From: Sapientia aquatica
GTDB taxonomy: Bacteria > Pseudomonadota > Gammaproteobacteria > Burkholderiales > Burkholderiaceae_D
DNA: 64,000 bases
Assembly (NCBI RefSeq): GCF_004358105.1
Contig: NZ_SMYL01000002.1
Coordinates: forward strand, 372,001-436,000
Direction of reading: 5' to 3'
In this document: piece after piece, positions 9,466-57,516 of the stretch
Layout of the letters: each line of letters opens with the position of its first letter
How positions within the stretch are numbered: position 1 is the stretch's first letter
The notes under the pieces: model-generated
Told to the model about the DNA's origin: nothing
Seen by the model: only the letters and a program-made list of their open reading frames with translations
Databases searched by the model: none
Translations under genes and position numbers: made by a program

Positions 9466-9912
9466 ATGAATTTTCGTAAAGGCAGCAAATTTCGTAGTGA
9501 GCCAGAAATTAACTTAATCCCGTTCATCGATGTGCTATTGGTGATCCTGATCTTTTTAATGGTGACCACGACTTATAGTCGCTTTACGGAATTGCAAATT
9601 AATTTGCCTACCGCGGACGCTTCAGCGTCGCAACAACGTCCGAATGAAATCCAAATCGGCGTGGATAGCCGCGGTAATTACAAAATCAATCAAAAGCCAG
9701 TGGCGCGCATTGACGTAGCTGATTTGGCGGAGAATTTAAAAGCGGCTGCTGGCGCGTTTGCCTCGTCTTCCAATCCCAATTCACCGGAGCCGATTGTGAT
9801 TATCAACGCTGATGGCGCAGCTAGCCACCAATCGGTGATTGATATTTTGGAAGCAGCGCGTTTGGCTGGATTATCTAAAATCACCTTCGCAGCGCAAAGT
9901 CATCCTAAATAA
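9466..9912 (+). CDS. exbD: ExbD/TolR family biopolymer transport protein
   Basis: ExbD is the second part of the ExbB proton channel complex. The 148-residue protein has a basic N-terminus, then a single membrane helix (about 18-42) that opens with NLIPFIDVLLVILIFLMV and includes the conserved membrane Asp. A periplasmic domain with the peptidoglycan-side fold follows. A CAAGGACAGC ribosome site precedes the ATG. It lies between exbB and lpxK in one transcription unit, a linkage I know from other betaproteobacteria. Confidence 0.92.
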   Translation: MNFRKGSKFRSEPEINLIPFIDVLLVILIFLMVTTTYSRFTELQINLPTADASASQQRPNEIQIGVDSRGNYKINQKPVARIDVADLAENLKAAAGAFASSSNPNSPEPIVIINADGAASHQSVIDILEAARLAGLSKITFAAQSHPK

Positions 9913-47380: not shown

Positions 47381-47560
47381 TTTTGTCTCCTTGGGTTGCG
47401 GATTTGGATTTGGGGGTTTCTTTTGGAAAATTGGAATTGAGGGGGATTTTGAGGTTGTTGGGGGGAAAGTGCAAATTATTCTTTCGGGGCAGCGGGGCGG
47501 AGATTGTTTGTTGATTTTTAAATAAATTACTTGCTTGGTTGTTTTTGTACTTGGGGTCGG

Positions 47561-47759
47561 GGGTAGCCCGACGGCTACTCACTTTTTTGTCTCGCCAAAA
47601 AAGGTAACCCAAAAAAGGCGACCACGGTATTTCGGAAACCCTGAAAAATTAGGTTCAAAAATGGGAAAGGAGTGAAACTCGCTGCGCTCAATCAGCACTC
47701 CTTTCTGATCCATTTTTAAGCCTAATTTTCCAGCCGAAATACAGTGGATTAAGGTCAAC
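47561..47759 (+). repeat. Structured dispersed repeat, copy 1
   Basis: In order: hairpin TAGCC/GGCTA (47564-47577); TCGCC/GGCGA (47592-47621); outer stem 47622-47635 with 47734-47747 (13 of 14 pairs); inner stem 47643-47664 with 47710-47731; apical stem GAAAGGAGTG/CACTCCTTTC (47665-47674, 47696-47705); loop 47675-47695. The flanks, outer stem and loop match copy 2 at 56950-57150 (reverse strand), while the inner and apical stems differ but stay complementary. No coding is evident. It resembles no named repeat family I know. Confidence 0.8.
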
Positions 47760-47848
47760 AAACATCATTGATTCAAGGATTTCGCTTGGTTACATTGGGT
47801 GTCTTTGACTTTGTGTTTTGATGCGTATAAAGAATGCAAGAATTTGGT

Positions 47849-47931
47849 GCTGAAAAAGTCGGAGTTTCAGCGACGGCTGGGTCGCCTTTTTTTGCTTATT
47901 TTTTGGCGAGACAAAAAAAGTGAGCTGTCGG
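47849..47931 (-). repeat. Structured dispersed repeat, decayed copy 3
   Basis: On the complement, 47931-47879 repeats the left flank of copy 1: GGCT/GTC-like start, TCACTTTTTTTGTCTCGCC, then AAAAAAGGCGACC. The outer stem is lost. A short hairpin GCTGAAA/TTTCAGC (47849-47855, 47865-47871) stands where the long stem would be. It points towards copy 1, so the two flanks form a wide inverted repeat about 300 bp apart. Confidence 0.6.
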
Positions 47932-47985
47932 TGATGCGTGGGTTTCGATTGGCATGCCAATCGCGCGCGCAACGCTGTTCGCATG

Positions 47986-48027
47986 CGGGTGAATACTCCC
48001 TCCCTATTGGGACACAGGGTCTACCCG
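47986..48027. repeat. Small palindromic intergenic repeat, copy B
   Basis: CGGGT (47986-47990) pairs with ACCCG (48023-48027), and the inside ATTGGGACACAGGGTCTACCCG resembles the right half of copy A at 45222-45267. Pairing of the left inner arm is imperfect. Confidence 0.45.
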
Positions 48028-48103
48028 TGACCTGCAAACTCAAATAATTAGCAAAGGTAAATAAACATCACTGCAACAAGAAATATCCAAACAGCTAAAA
48101 ACC

Positions 48104-48943
48104 TCACAACTCTGTTCGTAAAGCGAACAACTCAGGAAACAAAACCACATCCAACATTTTCCTCAAATAACTAACCCCAGCCGTTCCCCCAGTGCCTGTT
48201 TTAAATCCAATAATCCGCTCCACCGTAGTCACATGCCGGAAGCGCCAAATTCGGAACGCTGTTTCCAAATCCACTAACTTCTCCGCCAATTCATACAAAA
48301 CCCAATGCTGTTCGGGCGCTTGATAAACCTGCGTCCAAGCGGCTTGAACCGAAGCGTTGGCTTCGACTGGTAGGCGCCAATCGCGTTGCAAACGCGCTGC
48401 ATCGATGGCTAAACCTTCTCGTGCCATTAACAAAATCGCCTCGTCATAAATCGACGGTGAACTTAATGCCGCCGCGAGTTTGGCGTGGTTTTCTGGTTCG
48501 GTTTCATGCACCTTCATCAGGGTTGCGTTTTTATTGCCTAATAAGAATTCCAACTCCCGATATTGGTACGATTGAAAGCCAGAGGATTGTCCTAAATAAG
48601 GGCGAATTGCGGTGTATTCGGACGGCGTCATGGTGGCCAGCACGTCCCACGCATGCACTAACTGATCCATGATTCTGGCTACGCGCGAGAGCATTTTAAA
48701 GGCGGGTGGTAAATCGCCCGATTGGAGTTGCGTGCGCACGGCGCGCAATTCGTGCAGCATTAATTTAATCCACAATTCGCTCGTTTGATGCTGCACGATG
48801 AAGAGCATTTCGTTGTGGTTTGGTGAGCGCGGATGTTGGGCGGTGAGTATTTGCCCTAGGCCTAAATAATCGCCGTAGCTCATATCTTTGCTGAAATCTA
48901 ATTTGGCATCATGCCAAGTGCTGGGTTTGGTTTGGTCAGTCAT
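48104..48943 (-). CDS. kynA: Tryptophan 2,3-dioxygenase
   Basis: KynA opens the indole ring of tryptophan with O2 to N-formylkynurenine, using haem. The 279-residue protein shows [33 protein letters not shown] (His near 58 in the active site), [19 protein letters not shown], and [28 protein letters not shown] with the proximal haem His, TDO signatures. It is the last gene of the kynB-kynU-kynA operon, 28 bp after kynU. Confidence 0.98.
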
Positions 48944-48971
48944 GGTGGTGGCTTAGTTGGATGGATTCAAA

Positions 48972-50216
48972 TTAGGTCACTGCGTTGCGCGGTGCGTGAA
49001 TCTCATAATCGTTGTTATCCAAAATATGTTTGAGTGCTTGCACCGCATTCCACACGTCCATGTAGCTGGTGTAGAGCGGCGTAAATCCAAATCGGGCGAC
49101 TTGCGGTTCGCGGTAGTCGCCGATGACGCCGCGTTTGATTAAGGCTTGAATAATTGGGTAGGCATGGGGATGCATGTAACTAACGTGACTGCCGCGTTTG
49201 GCGTGCTCGGTTGGTGTGACTAAGCTCAAGCCATGGGTACCGCATTCTTGCGCTACCAAAGCGATGAATAGGTCAGTAAGTGCTAACGATTTGCCGCGTA
49301 CTGCGTTGATATTGGTTTGTTCGAAGGTCGATAAACCGACTTCCACCAAGGCTAAGGAAACAATCGGTTGCGTGCCGCACAGAGCGCGTCGGATTGTCTT
49401 GGTGGGAGTGAATTCGGCTTGCATGGCAAACGGTGCATTGTGTCCCCACCAGCCTGATAGTGGATGGGTGAAGGCGGTTTGATGGCGTTCTGCGATCCAA
49501 ATAAATGCTGGTGCGCCGGGGCCGCCGTTTAAGTATTTGTAGGTGCAACCAACGGCGAAATCGGCGTTGCATCCATTTAAATCAATCGGCACCGCGCCAG
49601 CGGAATGGCATAAATCCCAGATGGTTAGCACATCGTGTTTATGCGCATGCGCGGTGAGTGCTTGCATGTCTAGCAGCTCGCCGGTACGGTAGTTGACTTG
49701 GGTCAGCAACACCAAGGCGGTGTCGTCGTTGATGGCCGTGTAGAGTTCTTCCGTGGTGTCAATCAATTGCAACTGATAGCCTTGGTTTAGCCACTCGGTG
49801 ATCCCTTGGATCATGTACAAATCGGTGGGGAAATTAATCCGCTCGGTGACGATGACTTTGCGCTGCGGATGTTTTTCTGCTTGGATTTTTAATCCTGCGG
49901 CTAAGGTTTTGAACAGATTGATTGAGGTGCTATCGGTCAATACCACTTCGGACGATTTCGCGCCGATTAAGGGTGCCAATAAATCGCCTAAACGCGATGG
50001 CAGATCAAACCAGCCAGCGCTGTTCCAACTGCCAATTAATTTGTCGCCCCATTCTTGCTCAATCACTTGCTGCGCCCGCTGGATGGCGGCTTTGGGCTGC
50101 GCGCCTAGTGAATTGCCATCTAAATAAATTACATTCGGCGGCAGATTAAATTGCTCTCGGATGGGGGCGAGCGGATCTTGTTGATCCAGTTGCTGGCAAG
50201 TGGCTTGGGTAATCAT
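48972..50216 (-). CDS. kynU: Kynureninase
   Basis: KynU cleaves kynurenine to anthranilate and alanine with PLP. The 414-residue protein has the PLP lysine, Lys227, in [19 protein letters not shown]. It also has [14 protein letters not shown] near the start, and [14 protein letters not shown] with the Asp that binds the PLP ring. It is in the middle of the kyn operon, 30 bp after kynB. The three enzymes together take tryptophan to anthranilate. Confidence 0.98.
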
Positions 50217-50246
50217 GGGGATTCCGATAAAAAGTAACTAACAATA

Positions 50247-50873
50247 TTAAGCAAGGCTGCGCAGAATCGCGCGCACTGGGCTGGCGTCCAAGCCGGCTAA
50301 TTTGAGCGGCAGGGCGATTAACTCGTAATCTCCCGCTGGCACGTTATCTAAGACGATTCCTTCCAAAATTGCCATGCCGTGTGATTCCACTGCATGGTGC
50401 GCGTCCAAGGTCTTTGATTCTTGTGGATCAAGCGAAGGGCTATCAATTCCAATCAGTTTAACGCCCGCTTGTGCTAACAAATGTATGGCGTCCGCCGCGA
50501 TGCAGGGGAAATTGCTGTCCCATTGCATTGGCGTTTGGCTGTAGGTGCGGATTAAGACCCGCGCTGGGACATTGGCTAGGTGCGGCTTGAGCTGTTCAGC
50601 TTGGATTAAGCGGGTGCCTTGCAAATCAATCACTCGGCAAGGGCCGATATACGTATTCAATTCAACTTCATCGATGGCTTTGCCGTTAACCCCGTAATGC
50701 GAAGGGGCATCGCAATGGGCGCCGGTGTGGGTGGACATGGTGATTTTGCTGACCTTCACTGGGCAGCCATCGGCGATTTCCCACGTAGTGTCGGACTGAA
50801 AAGGCGTGTCACCCGGCCAGACGGGCAGTGCGGCATGAACTAAGGGGCTGATGTCCCAGATTATTGTGCTCAT
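50247..50873 (-). CDS. kynB: Arylformamidase (kynurenine formamidase)
   Basis: KynB hydrolyses N-formylkynurenine to kynurenine. The 208-residue, metal-dependent enzyme has the cyclase-family motif [15 protein letters not shown] (HxGTHxDxPxH type, with Ala for Thr) and VWPGDTPFQ and GIDSPSLDP, which are typical of KynB. ATG 50873 ([13 protein letters not shown]) is chosen over a TTG at 50897. It is the first gene of kynBUA, divergent from the Lrp-type regulator. Confidence 0.96.
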
Positions 50874-50940
50874 CGGTAGCGCTCGAAATAAGGTCAAAAG
50901 TTAAGCTGCGGATGCATAAATAGCAAACTAATTTTATTCT

Positions 50941-50954
50941 AATTTAGCTAAATT
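50941..50954. promoter_or_regulatory. Candidate KynR operator (perfect palindrome)
   Basis: AATTTAGCTAAATT is a perfect 14-bp palindrome in the gap between kynB and the Lrp-type gene. It lies 11 bp upstream of that gene's -35 box. Lrp-family regulators bind AT-rich palindromes, so this is a plausible binding site for both directions. Confidence 0.5.
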
Positions 50955-50965
50955 TTCCTTGCATA

Positions 50966-50993
50966 TTGACGTAATGTTTGCCATAACTATAGA
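50966..50993 (+). promoter_or_regulatory. Sigma-70 promoter for the Lrp-type regulator gene
   Basis: TTGACG (50966-50971) and TATAGA (50988-50993) are spaced by 16 bp. The start codon follows about 40 bp downstream. Confidence 0.65.
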
Positions 50994-51034
50994 ACAAGCT
51001 GTCAATTTAACAGGGATATTTGGAGAAATGTGTC

Positions 51035-51514
51035 ATGGAGCTAGATAAAACCGATTTCGCGATTTTGCGCTACTTACAAGAAGATGGTCGCATCAACAAC
51101 TCTGATTTAGCCGATAAGATTTTTCTATCGGCGTCCTCCTGTTTGCGCCGCGTCCGTGCCTTGGAAGAGGCCGGCATCATCGCTGGCTACCGCGCTGTTT
51201 TGGACGGCAATGCAGTTGGGCTAGAAGTCGATGCCTTTGTGCAGGTGACTATGCGCCGCGATGTGGAACAGTGGCATGAGAACTTTAGTAAAGAAGTGCA
51301 GCAATGGCCAGAAGTAGTTGGCTGTTTCATCATTACTGGGGAAGCTAATTATCTGTTACGGGTGCGGGCGCGAAATCTTAAGCACTATTCTGCATTTATT
51401 ATGGATCGCTTGTACAAGACCTTAGGCGTGTTGGATATTCGCTCGAACATTGTTTTGCAAATGTTAAAAGATACCCACGTGATTGATTCGGCATTGATGA
51501 AAAATCACGATTAA
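51035..51514 (+). CDS. kynR: Lrp/AsnC family regulator, probable KynR
   Basis: The 159-residue protein has an N-terminal helix-turn-helix (LDKTDFAILRYLQEDGRINNSDLADKIFLSASSCLRRVRALEEAG) and a C-terminal RAM ligand-binding domain (VVGCFIITGEANYLLRVRA). It is divergent from kynBUA. In Pseudomonas and Burkholderia relatives, the divergent Lrp-type KynR responds to kynurenine and activates kyn genes; I infer the same here. ATG 51035 follows TTGGAGAAA. It may also control its own promoter through 50941-50954. Confidence 0.85.
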   Translation: MELDKTDFAILRYLQEDGRINNSDLADKIFLSASSCLRRVRALEEAGIIAGYRAVLDGNAVGLEVDAFVQVTMRRDVEQWHENFSKEVQQWPEVVGCFIITGEANYLLRVRARNLKHYSAFIMDRLYKTLGVLDIRSNIVLQMLKDTHVIDSALMKNHD

Positions 51515-51556
51515 AGAAGTAATCCAAACCGACAATACTTGTTAGTAAAATAAATT

Positions 51557-51590
51557 TAGGGCCAACAGCACGCAAATGCTGTTGGCCCTA
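51557..51590. terminator. Hairpin between kynR and the S53 peptidase gene
   Basis: TAGGGCCAACAGCA and TGCTGTTGGCCCTA form a perfect 14-bp stem with a 6-nt loop. Flanking sequence is AT-rich, with a fair T-run on the complement. It likely serves both convergent genes. Confidence 0.7.
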
Positions 51591-51632
51591 ATCACTTTAT
51601 GACCAAATAATAACGTTTAAGTTGGCTTAACC

Positions 51633-53513
51633 TTAATCGTCATCACCCCAATCATCGTCGCTAATGCCAAACGAACGCGCCAAATTGTTGACGTTCAACG
51701 CGCCAATTCCTGAGGCTGGGTTGTAGCCTTGGGTTGCTTGCCAATACAGATTGTCTCCAGAAGTAATCGCCGTAAATGGAGAATTTTTAGCATAGCCGTA
51801 TTGTAAGAAACGAGCATACAACTGCGGATTCAAGTGGCCTAAACGTGAATGGCTGTGCTGTGAGACCAACGCAGCAATACCATTTAATTGCGGCGCGACG
51901 AAGCTAGTTCCGCCGTAACCTTGCAGCCAGCCACCACTGACATAAACCAAATAGCCCGTATCTGGATCAGCGTTGAGCGACACATCCGGTACGTTACGAC
52001 CTGCGTAACCGGCTGGGGCATCGAATAAATCAGAAGGTGTGTAGGCTGAGCAAACTAAGGATTGACCTGCTGCGCTGACTTGGGTGCCGGGAACATTTTT
52101 CTGATACTTTGGAAGATCAAAGTTCAAGCTAACGCCACCGCCACCGCCAACGGGGAACAGGTAGGTGTAATAAACACTTGGGGAAAAATAGTTTTGCAAA
52201 TAATCCCAACCCCAAGGGCGGTCTTTAGGGATAGTCAACGTCGTGCCGTTTTGGAATTGCAATACCGACGCCAAGGTCAAACCACCTGCTGCGACCACAT
52301 ACGGATCGCTTGCAGGCGAATCCACGGTCAGAAGTTGACTGCATCCCGGATAAGCAAACGGACCTTGGTTATTGTTAATGTCGTAAGCACCTTCATCACC
52401 AGAAGCCGCAAACACGCTGATACCTTGTGCTGCTAACTCCAAGAAAGCTTGATGCTGACCAGCCATGACTTCTGGTGTTTGGGCGATTTCAGGCGAGCCC
52501 CAGCTTACTGACAAGGTATCGACTTTGTTGTCCGCCGCGGCTTTAAAGAATACGTCCATAAAGCCCGAATCCGTATTGGGCGCGTCATACACAATCACTT
52601 TTGCCGCCGGAGCTAAGCCACCAGATTGTTCTACGTCTAGCGTGGTTTCGTCCGCGCCATTTGTGCCCGCGCCTCCGTCGATGTGAATTTGTTTGATTCT
52701 ATTTGGTTTGACTTTTAAACCAATGCTGCTCCAGTAAGTATAGGCATCGTTCGGATCAAAGGTCGCTAAGGTGGCAATCCCAATTGTTCTGCCTTGACCG
52801 TAGAAATGATGTTTATACAAAGGAGTGACGTTGTACAAGCTCGCCACGTCTTGCACAGTAAATAAACCAGGTGCATTGGTGGTGCCGGATTGGTTGATTA
52901 ACTTGGCATTGACAATCGCTGCTTGGGATGATTTCGCCGCAGCGGCTGGCAATTGGCGGGACCTTGGATGGGCGTGTTCTCTGCCGTTGAGCCCAGTCAC
53001 TGCGAGCACCACGTCGGAAATTTCACCCGGAACAGTCACAGGAACACTGGGTTTGCTGTAGATCGTATTTTTTTCGCTGTAGTTGTGCAGTTGTGTATTA
53101 AAAAATTGATTGAACTGCGCGGTCGTGCCAGTGGCGCGAATGACCATGTGGTTTTTATACACTTCATTGACCGTAATGCCGAGCGCACTGAGCGATTTCT
53201 TTACACGTCGAATATCGGCGTGGCTTGGCGCATAGCGTTCGGTAAATTCTTCAACCGACAAAAACTGACGATACTCGTCGCTGTTTGGGTTGACTGTGCG
53301 TGCGATAAATCTCTCTAGTTTATCGACATCGTGCAATTGCAAAACGATCGAAACTGTTTGTGGCGCATCGACGGCGGTTGCACCTAAATCTTGAACGGCT
53401 GCTGTGGCCGCAAAAGCGGCTGACGAACTTAAAGCACCTGCAAATAAAACGGACACTAATGTCGCCATTGGTTTCATCGTTAGCTTAGCGACGGATTTAG
53501 TTCTAAATATCAT
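51633..53513 (-). CDS. S53 family peptidase (sedolisin/kumamolisin type), secreted
   Basis: The 626-residue acid-type serine peptidase has a signal peptide (cut near AFA, residue 35), then a pro-domain (about 50-185, with FLSVEEFTERYAPS) that normally inhibits the enzyme, and the catalytic domain. Catalytic residues fit the family: Glu289 and Asp293 (ADETTLDVEQSG), Asp373 (ASGDEGAYD) and Ser537 (GYGGTSFVAPQ). The end has GYNPASGIGALN, near the calcium site, and an acidic tail DDDWGDDD. A probable extracellular protein degrader; the gene stands alone. Confidence 0.94.
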   Translation of the reverse strand: MIFRTKSVAKLTMKPMATLVSVLFAGALSSSAAFAATAAVQDLGATAVDAPQTVSIVLQLHDVDKLERFIARTVNPNSDEYRQFLSVEEFTERYAPSHADIRRVKKSLSALGITVNEVYKNHMVIRATGTTAQFNQFFNTQLHNYSEKNTIYSKPSVPVTVPGEISDVVLAVTGLNGREHAHPRSRQLPAAAAKSSQAAIVNAKLINQSGTTNAPGLFTVQDVASLYNVTPLYKHHFYGQGRTIGIATLATFDPNDAYTYWSSIGLKVKPNRIKQIHIDGGAGTNGADETTLDVEQSGGLAPAAKVIVYDAPNTDSGFMDVFFKAAADNKVDTLSVSWGSPEIAQTPEVMAGQHQAFLELAAQGISVFAASGDEGAYDINNNQGPFAYPGCSQLLTVDSPASDPYVVAAGGLTLASVLQFQNGTTLTIPKDRPWGWDYLQNYFSPSVYYTYLFPVGGGGGVSLNFDLPKYQKNVPGTQVSAAGQSLVCSAYTPSDLFDAPAGYAGRNVPDVSLNADPDTGYLVYVSGGWLQGYGGTSFVAPQLNGIAALVSQHSHSRLGHLNPQLYARFLQYGYAKNSPFTAITSGDNLYWQATQGYNPASGIGALNVNNLARSFGISDDDWGDDD

Positions 53514-53748
53514 TTGAAGCTCTCCCCGGATTGGATTTTTGTCGAGTCAATTGTTAGCAATGGATAATTGCGAAATTGATCTTATGGGAGAAAAAAACAG
53601 AAATCTAATGATATTTTGGAAGGTGTTGGATTTTGTTAAAAAAGATAATTTTTAACATTTACAAAAAGCTATCTATGATTACTCTGACTAGTAAAAATCG
53701 GTTAAAAACCCCTCAAAATACGCTAATACGCTTTAAGATTAAATGATC

Positions 53749-54474
53749 TTAGAACCGTTCATAGCCCAATAAATAGCGCCATTGACCCAGCGGCAAGCTC
53801 GATAACGGAATTCGTCCGACCCGCAAACGTTTCAAATTAACGATCGTCAAACCAACGCGTTGGCACAGTAAATTAATTTGCTCAAGCTGTATGCCTTTAC
53901 CCGCAAAACGCAGTCGGGTTTCGTTTTGCCAGCTCACTTTTAATGCTGGCGCAAGCTTGCCGTTTAGCGTGATGGATTGGTTGAGTTGGGACATTAATTC
54001 GGCTGGATTAAGTGAGCAATTTTCACGATTGATTTCAGCCAAATATTCTTGCTCAATTTTGCTCGCGTCGTCGATTAATTTACGTTTGATTTTGAAATCC
54101 TGGCTAAAGATGACCAAGCCGCTGGCACTGGTTTCCAAGTTATTGGTCAACGCTAAACCCGATGTATGGCGCTTTAAAAATCGTAAGCCAGAGCGATTAC
54201 CCGCAGCCATTGTCTCGGCAGTCAAGTTGTGCGCCAACCAATCGGCTTCGATGCCGGCCGGCTTGTGCCACAAAATAGTCACGTCCGTTAGTGGAGCTAA
54301 ATTTGCCTTGGGCAGCAGCGCGATTTGGTGCGACTCATCAACCCGAAAACCGGGTTCTTCGACCACTTGCCCATCCACAGTGACCCAACCGCCCGCGATG
54401 TATTGTTCGGCTTCTTGGCGTGAACAAGGAACTTGCTCGGCAAGACGTTTAGCGAGTCGGATTGAATTTGACAT
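53749..54474 (-). CDS. S4-domain pseudouridine synthase-like protein with altered catalytic motif
   Basis: The 241-residue protein has an S4 RNA-binding domain at the N-terminus (RLAKRLAEQVPCSRQEAEQYI, GGWVTVDG) followed by an RsuA/RluF-like domain (VTILWHKPAG, GLVIFSQDFKIKRKLIDD, VGLTIVNLKRLRVGRIPL). The catalytic motif normally reads GRLD with essential Asp. Here the aligned block is NNLE (residues 111-114), with Glu for Asp and Asn for Arg. Either it is inactive on RNA and works as a binding protein, or it is a variant of the family. The target RNA is unknown. Confidence 0.8.
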   Translation of the reverse strand: MSNSIRLAKRLAEQVPCSRQEAEQYIAGGWVTVDGQVVEEPGFRVDESHQIALLPKANLAPLTDVTILWHKPAGIEADWLAHNLTAETMAAGNRSGLRFLKRHTSGLALTNNLETSASGLVIFSQDFKIKRKLIDDASKIEQEYLAEINRENCSLNPAELMSQLNQSITLNGKLAPALKVSWQNETRLRFAGKGIQLEQINLLCQRVGLTIVNLKRLRVGRIPLSSLPLGQWRYLLGYERF

Positions 54475-54626
54475 GAAAAATAGGAGAGCGTGAGAAGAGC
54501 GCTATTGTAGCCGCCTAGTCTGGCAGTTGGCGAATAATGCCTGCATCAACACGTCAATTAGGTGGTAATTTCACCAGAGTGTCATATAAGACGAGTAAGA
54601 TTTTGTGATAACTTTTTTTGGGGAAT

Positions 54627-56060
54627 ATGTTGAAAAAGCACTCTTTGCTATGTTGTCTCATCGCAGCCGTTGTCGCGCTAAGCGCCTGCCGTACCGCTCC
54701 ATCGAATCCATCAGCAACCTCCAGCGCCGCTGTCGATGCAAACGCGGCTAATCAAATTCAAGCGGCCTTTGTCGTACTTGGTGAACAAGGTCAAGCGCAA
54801 GCGCGTGTCATTACTAGCGCATCTGCCTGCCCCGCGTTGACGCAAGACGGTGTAACAAGTGCCATGTCGATTCGCGCACTGCCAGCCACGATTGCACAAC
54901 GCAAAACGCTAAGCAGTCCGACCGATTCGAAGCCGTCCGACTTCCCCGTGTTGACATGTGAGGCAACACTAAAAACAGGCGTTAAAGTCGCCAGCGTTGC
55001 TGGAAAAACGCTAGCCGTGCCTAAAGCGGTTCCGTTAAAAATTTTGGTGGTCGGTGATACCGGTTGTCGCATGAAATTGGCCGATAACTATTTTCAGTCT
55101 TGCTACGATTCCGATAAATGGGCCTTTGGCACGGTGGCTAAATCCGCCGCAACGTTTGCGCCCGATTTAGTCATTCATGTGGGCGATTATCAATACCGCG
55201 AAAACCCCTGTCCGGCTGGCAATGCCGCTTGTGCCGACAGCCCGTGGGGCTTTGGTTGGGACACTTGGAAAGCCGATTTCTTTGATCCTGCAGCACCCTT
55301 GTTGTCGGCTGCTCCTTGGGTATTAGCGCGCGGTAATCACGAATCCTGTGCGCGCGCTGGTCAAGGCTGGTGGCGCTTTATGGATCCACGTAGCCTACAA
55401 ACGGGGCGCGATTGCAATGTTGAAGCCAATGATATGACCGGCGACTACAGCGATCCTTACGCGGTTCCGCTAGGTGCAGGTGCGCAGTTGATCGTGTTTG
55501 ATTCAGCCAAAACAGCATCGAAACCCGTCGCCAAAACCGACCCTGTTTATGCGATTTATGCAGCGCAGTTCAAACAAGTTGACCGTTTAGCGGAGCAAGC
55601 GCCGTTTTCGATTTTCTTAGAGCACCATCCAATTTTGGGCTTCGCTCCAGAGAAAGCCAAAAACAGTAATGTTGAAGTAAAGTCCGGTAACGCCGCTCTG
55701 CAAAGCATTTTGCAAGACAGCCATCCACAACGTTTATTTGCACCAAATGTGCAGCTTTTGTTGGCGGGACATGTGCACTTGTTTGAAGCGATCACATTTG
55801 AAACCGACCACCCAATGCAAATCGTCAGCGGCAACGGCGGATCGTCGCCGGACGTTGATTTACCAACGCAGTTGTCACCACAAGCCACGCCGTTTAGCGG
55901 TGCGAAGGTTGCCCATTTCAACAGCACTAGCGAGAGCGGATTTATGACGATGGAACGCGCTTCGGTGACGGCGACCGATTGGGTAATGAAATCGTATGAT
56001 CGGAATGGTAAGTTGATGACGACTTGTACTATTAGCCGCGGGAAGCAAGCGTGTAATTGA
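54627..56060 (+). CDS. Lipoprotein metallophosphoesterase
   Basis: The 477-residue protein has a lipoprotein signal (MLKKHSLLCCLIAAVVALSAC, lipobox LSAC with Cys at 21). The phosphoesterase motifs are spaced through the middle and end: VVGDTGCR, HVGDYQYRENPC, ARGNHESC, LEHHPILGF and LLAGHVHLFE, which supply the two-metal site. The first motif reads GDTG rather than GDxHG, as in purple-acid-phosphatase-like members. It is likely a periplasmic or outer-membrane phosphatase; the substrate is unknown. ATG 54627 is preferred to TTG 54618. Confidence 0.87.
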   Translation: MLKKHSLLCCLIAAVVALSACRTAPSNPSATSSAAVDANAANQIQAAFVVLGEQGQAQARVITSASACPALTQDGVTSAMSIRALPATIAQRKTLSSPTDSKPSDFPVLTCEATLKTGVKVASVAGKTLAVPKAVPLKILVVGDTGCRMKLADNYFQSCYDSDKWAFGTVAKSAATFAPDLVIHVGDYQYRENPCPAGNAACADSPWGFGWDTWKADFFDPAAPLLSAAPWVLARGNHESCARAGQGWWRFMDPRSLQTGRDCNVEANDMTGDYSDPYAVPLGAGAQLIVFDSAKTASKPVAKTDPVYAIYAAQFKQVDRLAEQAPFSIFLEHHPILGFAPEKAKNSNVEVKSGNAALQSILQDSHPQRLFAPNVQLLLAGHVHLFEAITFETDHPMQIVSGNGGSSPDVDLPTQLSPQATPFSGAKVAHFNSTSESGFMTMERASVTATDWVMKSYDRNGKLMTTCTISRGKQACN

Positions 56061-56082
56061 TGGATTGAGTGGTTCTTGATGT

Positions 56083-56120
56083 ATGGCGCTAACCGAGATT
56101 ATTGGGTTAGCGCCATTTTT
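56083..56120 (+). terminator. Intrinsic terminator after the phosphoesterase gene
   Basis: TGGCGCTAACC pairs with GGTTAGCGCCA across a loop of about 10 nt, with TTTTT after. It lies about 23 bp past the stop codon. Confidence 0.88.
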
Positions 56121-56219
56121 ATTTGTGTTGGTGAGTTGGAACTCAGGTAAATTTTGTGATCTATAGAAGCGTTTTATTTTATGCGGATATTTGATTAATT
56201 TTATCTTTGAGTGTTGACG

Positions 56220-56639
56220 ATGTTGATTAGAAAAATATTTCCTCAGGAGCTTGATTGGGCGAATGCCCAATATTCGACAATTAAGTTCAAATTATCGAGT
56301 GATGCTGATTTTGTAGCGCTTGCTGAATTGGATGGAATTAGGGTGGGGCTTGGGCGATTAACATTTGTTGACAGCACCATTGGCGAATTAGGCGGGATGT
56401 TTGTGTTGCCTGAATATCGAGGGCGAAAAATCGCTGAGAACATTGTTAGCTTCTTGTTGGAAAACTCTTCTTTTTCGTGTTTGTACTGTATTCCCTTTGC
56501 GCATCTTGAGCGCTTTTATGAGCAATTTGGATTCGTGAGGGTTTGCGAACCTGTGGTTGCTCCTGAGTCGGTGGTGGATAAGTTTTCTTGGTGTGCGGAG
56601 GCTTATGAATCTCCTGTTGTTCTTATGAAAAGGGGGTGA
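56220..56639 (+). CDS. GNAT family N-acetyltransferase
   Basis: The 139-residue protein matches a small GNAT. VALAELDGIRVGLGRLTFV is the core strand, ELGGMFVLPEYRGRKIAENIVSFLL holds the acetyl-CoA loop (RGRKIA), and HLERFYEQFGFVRVCEP is the closing part. The acceptor is unknown. ATG 56220 is preferred to TTG 56211. No clear ribosome site is seen. The gene is more AT-rich than its neighbours and lies next to repeats and homopolymer runs, so it may be a recent arrival. Confidence 0.8.
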   Translation: MLIRKIFPQELDWANAQYSTIKFKLSSDADFVALAELDGIRVGLGRLTFVDSTIGELGGMFVLPEYRGRKIAENIVSFLLENSSFSCLYCIPFAHLERFYEQFGFVRVCEPVVAPESVVDKFSWCAEAYESPVVLMKRG

Positions 56640-56949
56640 GGTTTGCTTTGGTTTTTTTTTGGGGGGGGAGGTTAGGTGTAGCAATGGGCCCCTGTATGGA
56701 TTCAGTATTCGCCAGCATGCTAACGCCGTTAAGCAAGAGATAAGCATGGTTATCGAAACCCTTGCTGGAATTTAGATCACTGTATTTTTTAGTTCATCCT
56801 AGGATTAAAAAGTCGTTAGCAGCAGGGGGGTAAGTCAAAACCGAAATAACCGTTGTCAGCGCCAAATACTTTTATTCTTCTTGGACCATTAAAAAATCAG
56901 GTCTAAATCATCCGAGTTAGACAACGTAAGGTTTCCAATCAATGGTTTG

Positions 56950-57150
56950 TTTTGACGTTAATCCACTGTATTTCGGCCGGTTATTTTTTGAAAAAATGGA
57001 TCAGGAAGTAGCGTTGTCTGAGCGAAGCGAGTTTCGCTACTTTCCCATTTTTTCAAAAAATAATCGGGGTTTCCGAAATACCGTGGTCGCCTTTTTTGGG
57101 TTCCCTTTTTTGGCGAGACAAAAAAGGGAACTAGCCGCCGGGCTACCCCC
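56950..57150 (-). repeat. Structured dispersed repeat, copy 2
   Basis: This is copy 1 (47561-47759) on the other strand. The outer stem is 56963-56976 with 57073-57086 (13 of 14 pairs), the inner stem 56981-56999 with 57045-57063 (19 perfect pairs), the apical stem 57004-57013 with 57035-57045, and the 21-nt loop 57014-57034. On the complement the loop starts AAACTCGCTTCGCTCA, against AAACTCGCTGCGCTCA in copy 1. Hairpin TAGCC/GGCTA is at 57132-57145. No coding is evident. Confidence 0.8.
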
Positions 57151-57516
57151 GGCCAGCAAAACTGCAAAAAATCGAATTGGTATTTTGGGATGGGCACCTA
57201 ATTCATTATGTTTTTCAACTGCGCAAATGCAATCCCAATATTCGTGAGATAAAAAAGATAACTAACCGTCAGGCTAGCGCCCTACCAACCTCAACAAAAA
57301 ATCAAAGTCACTACCTATTTCGGGATCGAACCAGATGGCGCCTACAACCGCAGCGCCGAAGTCGCCGATCAAAGCCTCGTGTTGCGCCGAAAAGAAACGA
57401 AATCTACAACTCAACAAACACAAATATCATCCCATTTTCTACCCACAGCGCGAATTCATATTTCTATTTACACAAGTAAAAACACACCATTCGCCTTCCT
57501 TATCTCTTTGATTTGC

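Follow-up and report, generated by a model that had tools for sequence, protein, structure and literature searches.

A dispersed family of covarying hairpin repeats in Sapientia aquatica and other bacteria, with structural selection on one DNA strand

When two intergenic hairpins share their loop and flanks and differ strongly in their stems, what is being conserved, and on which DNA strand? The question is raised by a 64,000-nucleotide stretch of the Sapientia aquatica genome (contig NZ_SMYL01000002.1, positions 372,001 to 436,000; hereafter the window). An earlier note on this DNA had described two copies of a repeat (47561-47759 and, reversed, 56950-57150) with outer, inner, and apical stems, and had proposed that conservation applies to the hairpin rather than to its sequence. 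Both copies were found at these positions with all three stems. They belong to a large, dispersed, apparently undescribed family of DNA repeats carried by many bacteria. In this family the stems covary, arms often form convergent pairs, copies are scattered over unrelated sites, and one orthologous site is filled in some genomes and empty in others. It is almost certain that the repeat is dispersed in the manner of a mobile element and that selection on its structure acts on one particular strand.

The repeat unit, here called an arm, was about 230 bp long. The copies and their shared flanks were real, but the extent of about 200 bp first given to them was too short: the flank holds two covarying structures, and many relatives add an inverted second arm. 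In the orientation in which the repeat was first written, an arm consisted, from its outer end, of H3, H2, a mini-hairpin (in most copies), H1, and an A/C-rich tail. H3 was formed by two interleaved helices (for example, CCGGG/CCCGG and GTAG/CTAC), H2 had the form ACTTTCTTTG..CAAAGAAAGT, and the mini-hairpin, usually present, had the form CCCTTCGGG. The long hairpin H1 comprised an outer stem, a hypervariable inner stem, a bulge that is one-sided and conserved (GGGAA opposite TTCTGATCC), and an apical stem of variable sequence carrying the loop AACTCGCTNCGCTCARACA. The tail was degenerate, with a period of 6 or 12.

Covariation was measured in 47 nonredundant copies, taken from 177 distinct copies that had been chosen by the loop-and-bulge motif. 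In an alignment-free swap test, the inner stem formed pairs at 17.06 of 20 positions when matched to its own partner vs. 10.42 when matched to that of another copy, and the paired fraction of the apical stem was 0.907 vs. 0.622; for each stem, none of 2000 permutations reached the observed value. The compensating changes between the two window copies were therefore not a matter of chance. In the alignment of the same copies, 91.2% of 1634 cells were paired vs. 61.1% after shuffling (standard deviation, 0.9), cells with two-sided changes numbered 518 vs. 169.7, and the covariation score was 0.747 vs. 0.190. Pairing fell to 33-52% when the partner was shifted by 1 to 3 columns. The number of pairs with a two-sided change (28 of 35 vs. 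26.1 shuffled, a value reached by 52 of 500 shuffles) was not a discriminating measure. The H3 helices (61 distinct 22-mers) formed 205 of 244 and 160 of 183 pairs, compared with 135.5 and 101.5 after swapping, the register having been selected for best pairing before the comparison. The GTAG position of H3 covaried with its partner (GTAG/CTAC, GTGG/CCAC, TCGG/CCGA) and was not invariant. The folding energies of copies 1 and 2 in the window corresponded to z-scores of -8.1 and -6.5 relative to dinucleotide shuffles. The swap and column tests, together with the mismatches described below, bear out the proposal that it is the hairpin that is kept, and neither of the contrary outcomes foreseen with it, nonpairing stems in further copies or a family of just two, was encountered.

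If the repeat were used only as double-stranded DNA, or if either strand were used, G.T and A.C mismatches would be expected alike. On the strand first printed, the stems of the 47 copies contained 49 A.C, 2 G.T, and 38 other mismatches (981 positions), and those of the 177 distinct copies contained 286, 8, and 124, respectively (3692 positions). The ratio of A.C to G.T was 40/2 in the inner stem, 9/0 in the apical stem, and 13/2 in H2 (62 distinct H2). A.C mismatches turn into wobble pairs when the complementary strand is read, so it is this strand, not the printed one, that folds: one strand, opposite to that written from outer end to tail, is under structural selection. At one site, the orthologous copies (L057, L058, L089, and L093) read GCGGGAC/GTCCCGC, GCAAGAC/GTCTCGC, and GCAAGAC/GTCTTGC, which on the folded strand is the series G-C, G.T, A-T, exactly the wobble permitted there. 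Mismatch asymmetry thus offers a way, requiring nothing but sequence, to tell the strand in use from its complement in a palindromic repeat.

On the folded strand, the apical loop was a GNA triloop closed by 2 or 3 bp in 179 of 184 distinct arms (GCA, 93; GAA, 51; GTA, 34; GGA, 1); of the remainder, two had another triloop, two had no stem, and one was unrecognised. The same triloop was present in 111 of the 116 arms outside the pattern-fetched loci (L134-L227). Most mini-hairpins also had a GNA loop closed by C-G (126 of 151), and 33 further arms had no mini-hairpin. In DNA, GNA trinucleotide loops form mini-hairpins known to be very stable. One source gives a calculated melting temperature of 88.5 °C for the DNA hairpin CGCGAAGCG (PMC10527192). 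The loops favour, without proving, a role of the folded strand as single-stranded DNA. They also name a precise ligand, the bulge with a GC-GNA-GC hairpin, as bait for the missing protein. The apical-loop word GAGCGCAGCGAG or its complement is presumably also found in a cloning-vector origin region that carries a PriA primosome assembly site, a possible lead to function; a literature search for likeness of the arm to such assembly sites gave nothing.

How widely the family is spread was examined with two covariance models, R1 (built from seven copies of the S. aquatica genome) and the broader R2 (built from the 47 diverse copies). In the S. aquatica genome, blastn and R1 found eight places, one of them weak (67.8 bits); seven of the eight also matched on the opposite strand, because these places are palindromic. 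R1 matched 3 of 5 genomes of the genus; in the family, under stricter filters, it matched 107 of 294 genomes, which represent 26 of 44 genera. In a sample of the phylum, R2 matched 23 of 398 genomes (20 of 213 genera): the S. aquatica genome, one other of the same family, 8 from further families within the order, and 13 from further orders within the class, with no match outside the class in this sample. The conserved loop was present in 22 of 23 loci from the 22 other genomes, the exception (L330) being a weak match. A strict pattern found 94 stretches in named genomes; among the 80 listed, 74 were Burkholderiales or betaproteobacterial, and the other six (two Methylophaga, three Desulfuromonadales or -aceae, and one Elusimicrobiales) showed the same layout, although the Desulfuromonadales, Elusimicrobiales, and one of the Methylophaga records are metagenome-assembled genomes and may reflect binning errors (the record title of Methylophaga lonarensis MPL does not mark it as one). 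The repeat had been put forward as a possible undescribed structured element, and it still appears to be one: no Rfam family reached its gathering score on the window or on 14 loci of relatives, searches of the open-access literature found no description, and at E ≤ 1 (10.6 kb of the window and the 14 loci) Rfam gave only subthreshold hairpin matches on the repeat. Compared with other structured repeats of Proteobacteria, the family may be one of the more widely distributed, and the RNA library that was searched lacks an entry for it. The nearest relative is Solimicrobium silvestre (Oxalobacteraceae), to whose GTDB genus the genome studied here belongs; in six S. silvestre contigs, a hairpin match started at base 156 or 157, which suggests that the repeat interrupts genome assembly.

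A position near gene ends, which the earlier note had suggested checking, was confirmed. Islands of arms were depleted between divergent genes (4 of 81 vs. 76 of 340 background gaps, P = 1.2e-4) and enriched between convergent genes (29 of 81 vs. 74 of 340, P = 0.014), where genes were long open reading frames (ORFs) rather than curated calls and 20 islands at locus edges were left out. This position, the wobble pairs confined to one strand, the strong covariation, and the interleaved covarying helices of H3 would all suit a structured RNA, which had been among the options named at the outset and is the main rival to a role as single-stranded DNA. The folded strand would then be transcribed, as a small RNA or by read-through, and could act, for example, as a stabiliser, a processing signal, or a decoy at gene ends, with dispersal being secondary. 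We nevertheless regard an RNA function as rather unlikely: the GNA triloop is a motif known from DNA, no Rfam family reached its gathering score, and inspection of the tail, short of a formal test, revealed no conserved promoter. In addition, the 43 single arms showed no clear coupling to the transcription of one neighbour, the tail-side gene reading toward the arm, which would give the folded strand, in 29 cases and the outer-side gene in 24.

Evidence of dispersal came from flanks and from one orthologous site. In Undibacterium terreum, arms up to 96.1% identical had 70-bp upstream flanks without a match. At one intergenic site in a single genus (g33; 39 genomes followed, 30 loci read), four loci carried arms (L279, L281, L283, and L284) and 26 did not; in nine of the 26, both flanking stretches were collinear with no insert. 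The junction was not seen because the right flanks were just 66-71% alike. Among the options first offered, a mobile hairpin thus fits best. Neighbouring arms at the same locus were mostly convergent (73, vs. 13 divergent and 18 on the same strand; redundant loci included), and the span of 12 convergent pairs was 502-590 bp. Many relatives carry the inverted second arm; in S. aquatica, arms were mostly single, and copy 1 retains just a remnant of a convergent partner. One locus (L084, 7631-9071) held four arms in direct orientation, spaced by about 400 bp, with the palindrome ATTCCCGCGAAAGCGGGAAT between them, which we take to be dRS3-like. Another palindrome, GGGTCAGAGTCAAAATTCG.., or part of it, was located just outside several arms (L254, L251, L252, L255, L248, and L090; genome G045).

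Convergent arms act as inverted repeats of about 230 bp, and in one genome, described below, cargo lies between them, as it might in a classical miniature inverted-repeat transposable element (MITE). Such an element would derive by deletion from a DNA transposon, would keep long inverted repeats at its termini, and would be moved as double-stranded DNA by a standard transposase, the hairpins being a by-product. Like MITEs, the arms are non-autonomous, intergenic, and, in many relatives though mostly not in S. aquatica, present as inverted repeats at both ends. Unlike in MITEs, one strand is under structural selection, and no parental transposon or target-site duplication was identified; no transposase-bearing copy or parental element was seen among the neighbouring ORFs of the arms. 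Strand-biased mismatches and hypervariable yet paired stems are left unexplained by a double-stranded substrate, and we consider such an origin very improbable.

The reading that we prefer, with a probability of roughly 0.5, is that the folded strand acts as single-stranded DNA and is recognised in trans, the arms being parts of a dispersed, non-autonomous mobile repeat similar to MITEs or to repetitive extragenic palindromes (REPs). The folded strand would be exposed as single-stranded DNA, for example, during replication. An enzyme whose gene lies elsewhere would then recognise the loop and bulge and mobilise the arm in trans, with handling that may be akin to that of REP sequences by the transposase TnpA-REP (RAYT). 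The variable stems could drift freely through G.T intermediates provided that pairing persists. Recognition of REPs is reported to be single-stranded, strand-specific, and mediated by loop and bulge (PMC8266576), and the strand asymmetry of the arms is consistent with recognition of one strand by TnpA-REP.

Several observations weigh against this reading. The wobble asymmetry by itself fits RNA as well as single-stranded DNA, and H3 showed no asymmetry between strands (6 G.T, 4 A.C). Pair geometry was not uniform, four adjacent pairs in S. silvestre being divergent, and in a convergent pair the folded strands of the two arms are opposite DNA strands. The loci compared yielded neither exact ends nor a target-site duplication. 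The repeat was nearly absent from plasmids (a one-arm query covered 17-23% of one arm in 5 of 72,556 records), and no matches were found in phages (0 of 50,697, with one arm or one strict pattern as the query) or in viral contigs (one strict pattern). No candidate partner enzyme emerged from the surroundings of the arms: 384 ORFs next to 116 islands yielded no recurrent gene, the largest group having six members (reading as ABC-ATPase-like), and none of 59 stretches around Y1 (PF01797) transposase genes, the family of RAYTs, some of them repeats of one gene, held an arm. Y1 genes were also present in all six tested g33 genomes without an element match.

The distribution of Y1 genes bears equally on the idea that the arms are REPs proper, that is, an unusually large family of REPs or bacterial interspersed mosaic elements (BIMEs; together with their transposase, a REPtron) moved by the TnpA-REP of the host. 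Y1 genes were present in 7 of 7 element-bearing genomes and, within g33, in all 18 genomes examined that carry elements (one genome, G175, being in both sets), and the only two of 34 scanned genomes without Y1 genes (G012 and G017) had no element match; one scanned genome (G298) was counted neither as element-bearing nor as lacking a match. As in REPs, BIMEs, and REP doublets forming hairpins (REPINs), the arms are dispersed intergenic palindromes that form inverted pairs near gene ends, have strand-specific bulge and loop features, and in many cases contain GTAG in H3. They differ in that GTAG covaries and is not an invariant neighbour of the palindrome, in the GNA loop, in their several helices and hypervariable stems, in the want of a linked RAYT in the Y1 stretches, and in their length, REPs being described as 20-40 bp long (PMC3733652). 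The arms were not filed as REPs because, despite these likenesses, they lack several of the REP features tested, and we judge membership of that class improbable. The word GGGTCAGAGT was found to flank some Y1 genes (L271 and L272).

Likeness to attC sites, suggested when the repeat was first noticed, was of a general kind only. An attC site is a hairpin with conserved features and a variable stem, in which structure and one strand matter. The arms share the hairpin, the variable stem, the strand-specific structure, and, in one genome, cargo. They are, however, mostly inverted to each other rather than direct, their conserved parts are the loop and the bulge, and no gene recurs beside them beyond small groups; no integrase recurred among the neighbouring ORFs, although no family-level integrase search was made. 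Compared by description only, the intergenic, multicopy, and in some cases palindromic "multicopy nucleotide sequences" reported from Geobacter (PMC2700814, PMC2996986) are also similar, and that group lies near the Desulfuromonadales records in which relatives of the arms were found.

Cargo was found in genome G045, where four convergent pairs spanning 1.0-1.4 kb, one of them cut by a contig end, enclosed AT-rich accessory ORFs: a Mrr-type restriction endonuclease (289 aa), a 73-aa and a 166-aa ORF, a 136-aa ORF, and a 218-aa ORF. Its GC content was 39.6-46.7%, compared with 52.6-58.4% in the flanks, and its matches in plasmids were weak and to hypothetical proteins. Cargo is rare, because in the survey of neighbouring arms convergent pairs more than 400 bp apart occurred in G045 only. 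A far-reaching version of our reading would be an ancient single-stranded DNA mobile system across several phyla, in which pairs of arms are cut on the folded strand and can carry genes, including a restriction enzyme. We hold this to be unlikely; if true, it would be a third kind of folded single-stranded cassette mobility beside integrons and the IS200/IS605-REP group, and, if arms do move genes, an additional route for the spread of defence genes. A further palindrome, CCCTCTCCC..GGGAGAGGG, was located outside cargo-bearing pairs (outer flanks of L190, L249, and L090), on both sides in L190.

The features of the two window copies are listed below. In copy 1, the outer stem (47622-47635 with 47734-47747) paired at 13 of 14 positions, the apical stem was GGAGTG/CACTCC, and the apical GCTGCGC (47681-47687) reads GC(GCA)GC on the minus strand. 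In copy 2, read on the minus strand, the outer stem was 57086-57073 with 56976-56963, the apical stem was GTAGCG/CGCTAC, and the apical GCTTCGC (57028-57022) reads GC(GAA)GC on the plus strand.

Table 1. Parts of the two arms in the window (positions of the window; strand as assigned in the analysis)
Feature	Position	Strand	Basis or remark
Copy 1, outer structure H3	47557-47578		short helices TCGGG/CCCGA and GTAG/CTAC, interleaved as in a pseudoknot or forming hairpins in alternation
Copy 1, hairpin H2 (ACTTTTTTG...CAAAAAAGGT)	47581-47605	-	sequence
Copy 1, main long hairpin H1 (outer, inner, and apical stems)	47622-47747	-	folded strand is minus
Copy 1, start of tail side (..GGTCAACAAAC..)	47748-47780		sequence; degenerate (GTCAAAAGCAAC)n tail in relatives
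Remnant of the H2 flank of an inverted second arm, convergent with copy 1	47880-47924 (C22:419880-419924)	-	blastn, 89% to the copy 1 flank
Copy 2, main long hairpin H1	56963-57086	+	arm on the minus strand, hence folded strand is plus
Copy 2, hairpin H2 (TTCCCTTTTTTG...CAAAAAAGGGAA)	57101-57130	+	sequence, fold
Copy 2, outer structure H3	57131-57152		CCGGG/CCCGG with GTAG/CTAG, one mismatch

Copy 1 was flanked by two minus-strand genes, for a peptidase M13 and a tryptophan dioxygenase, and copy 2 by two on the plus strand, an ORF for a GNAT acetyltransferase and a gene for urocanase. Next to the tails of the two window copies (at 47930-48000 and about 56700-56762) and of other S. aquatica copies lay a further repeat, module B (GGGTTTCGATTGGCATGCCAATCGCGCG..), and a piece resembling it was located within the apical loop of an arm in G175 (L084, about 9610-9690). 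The repeats contain spurious ORFs, which the strand signal would help to recognise in annotation.

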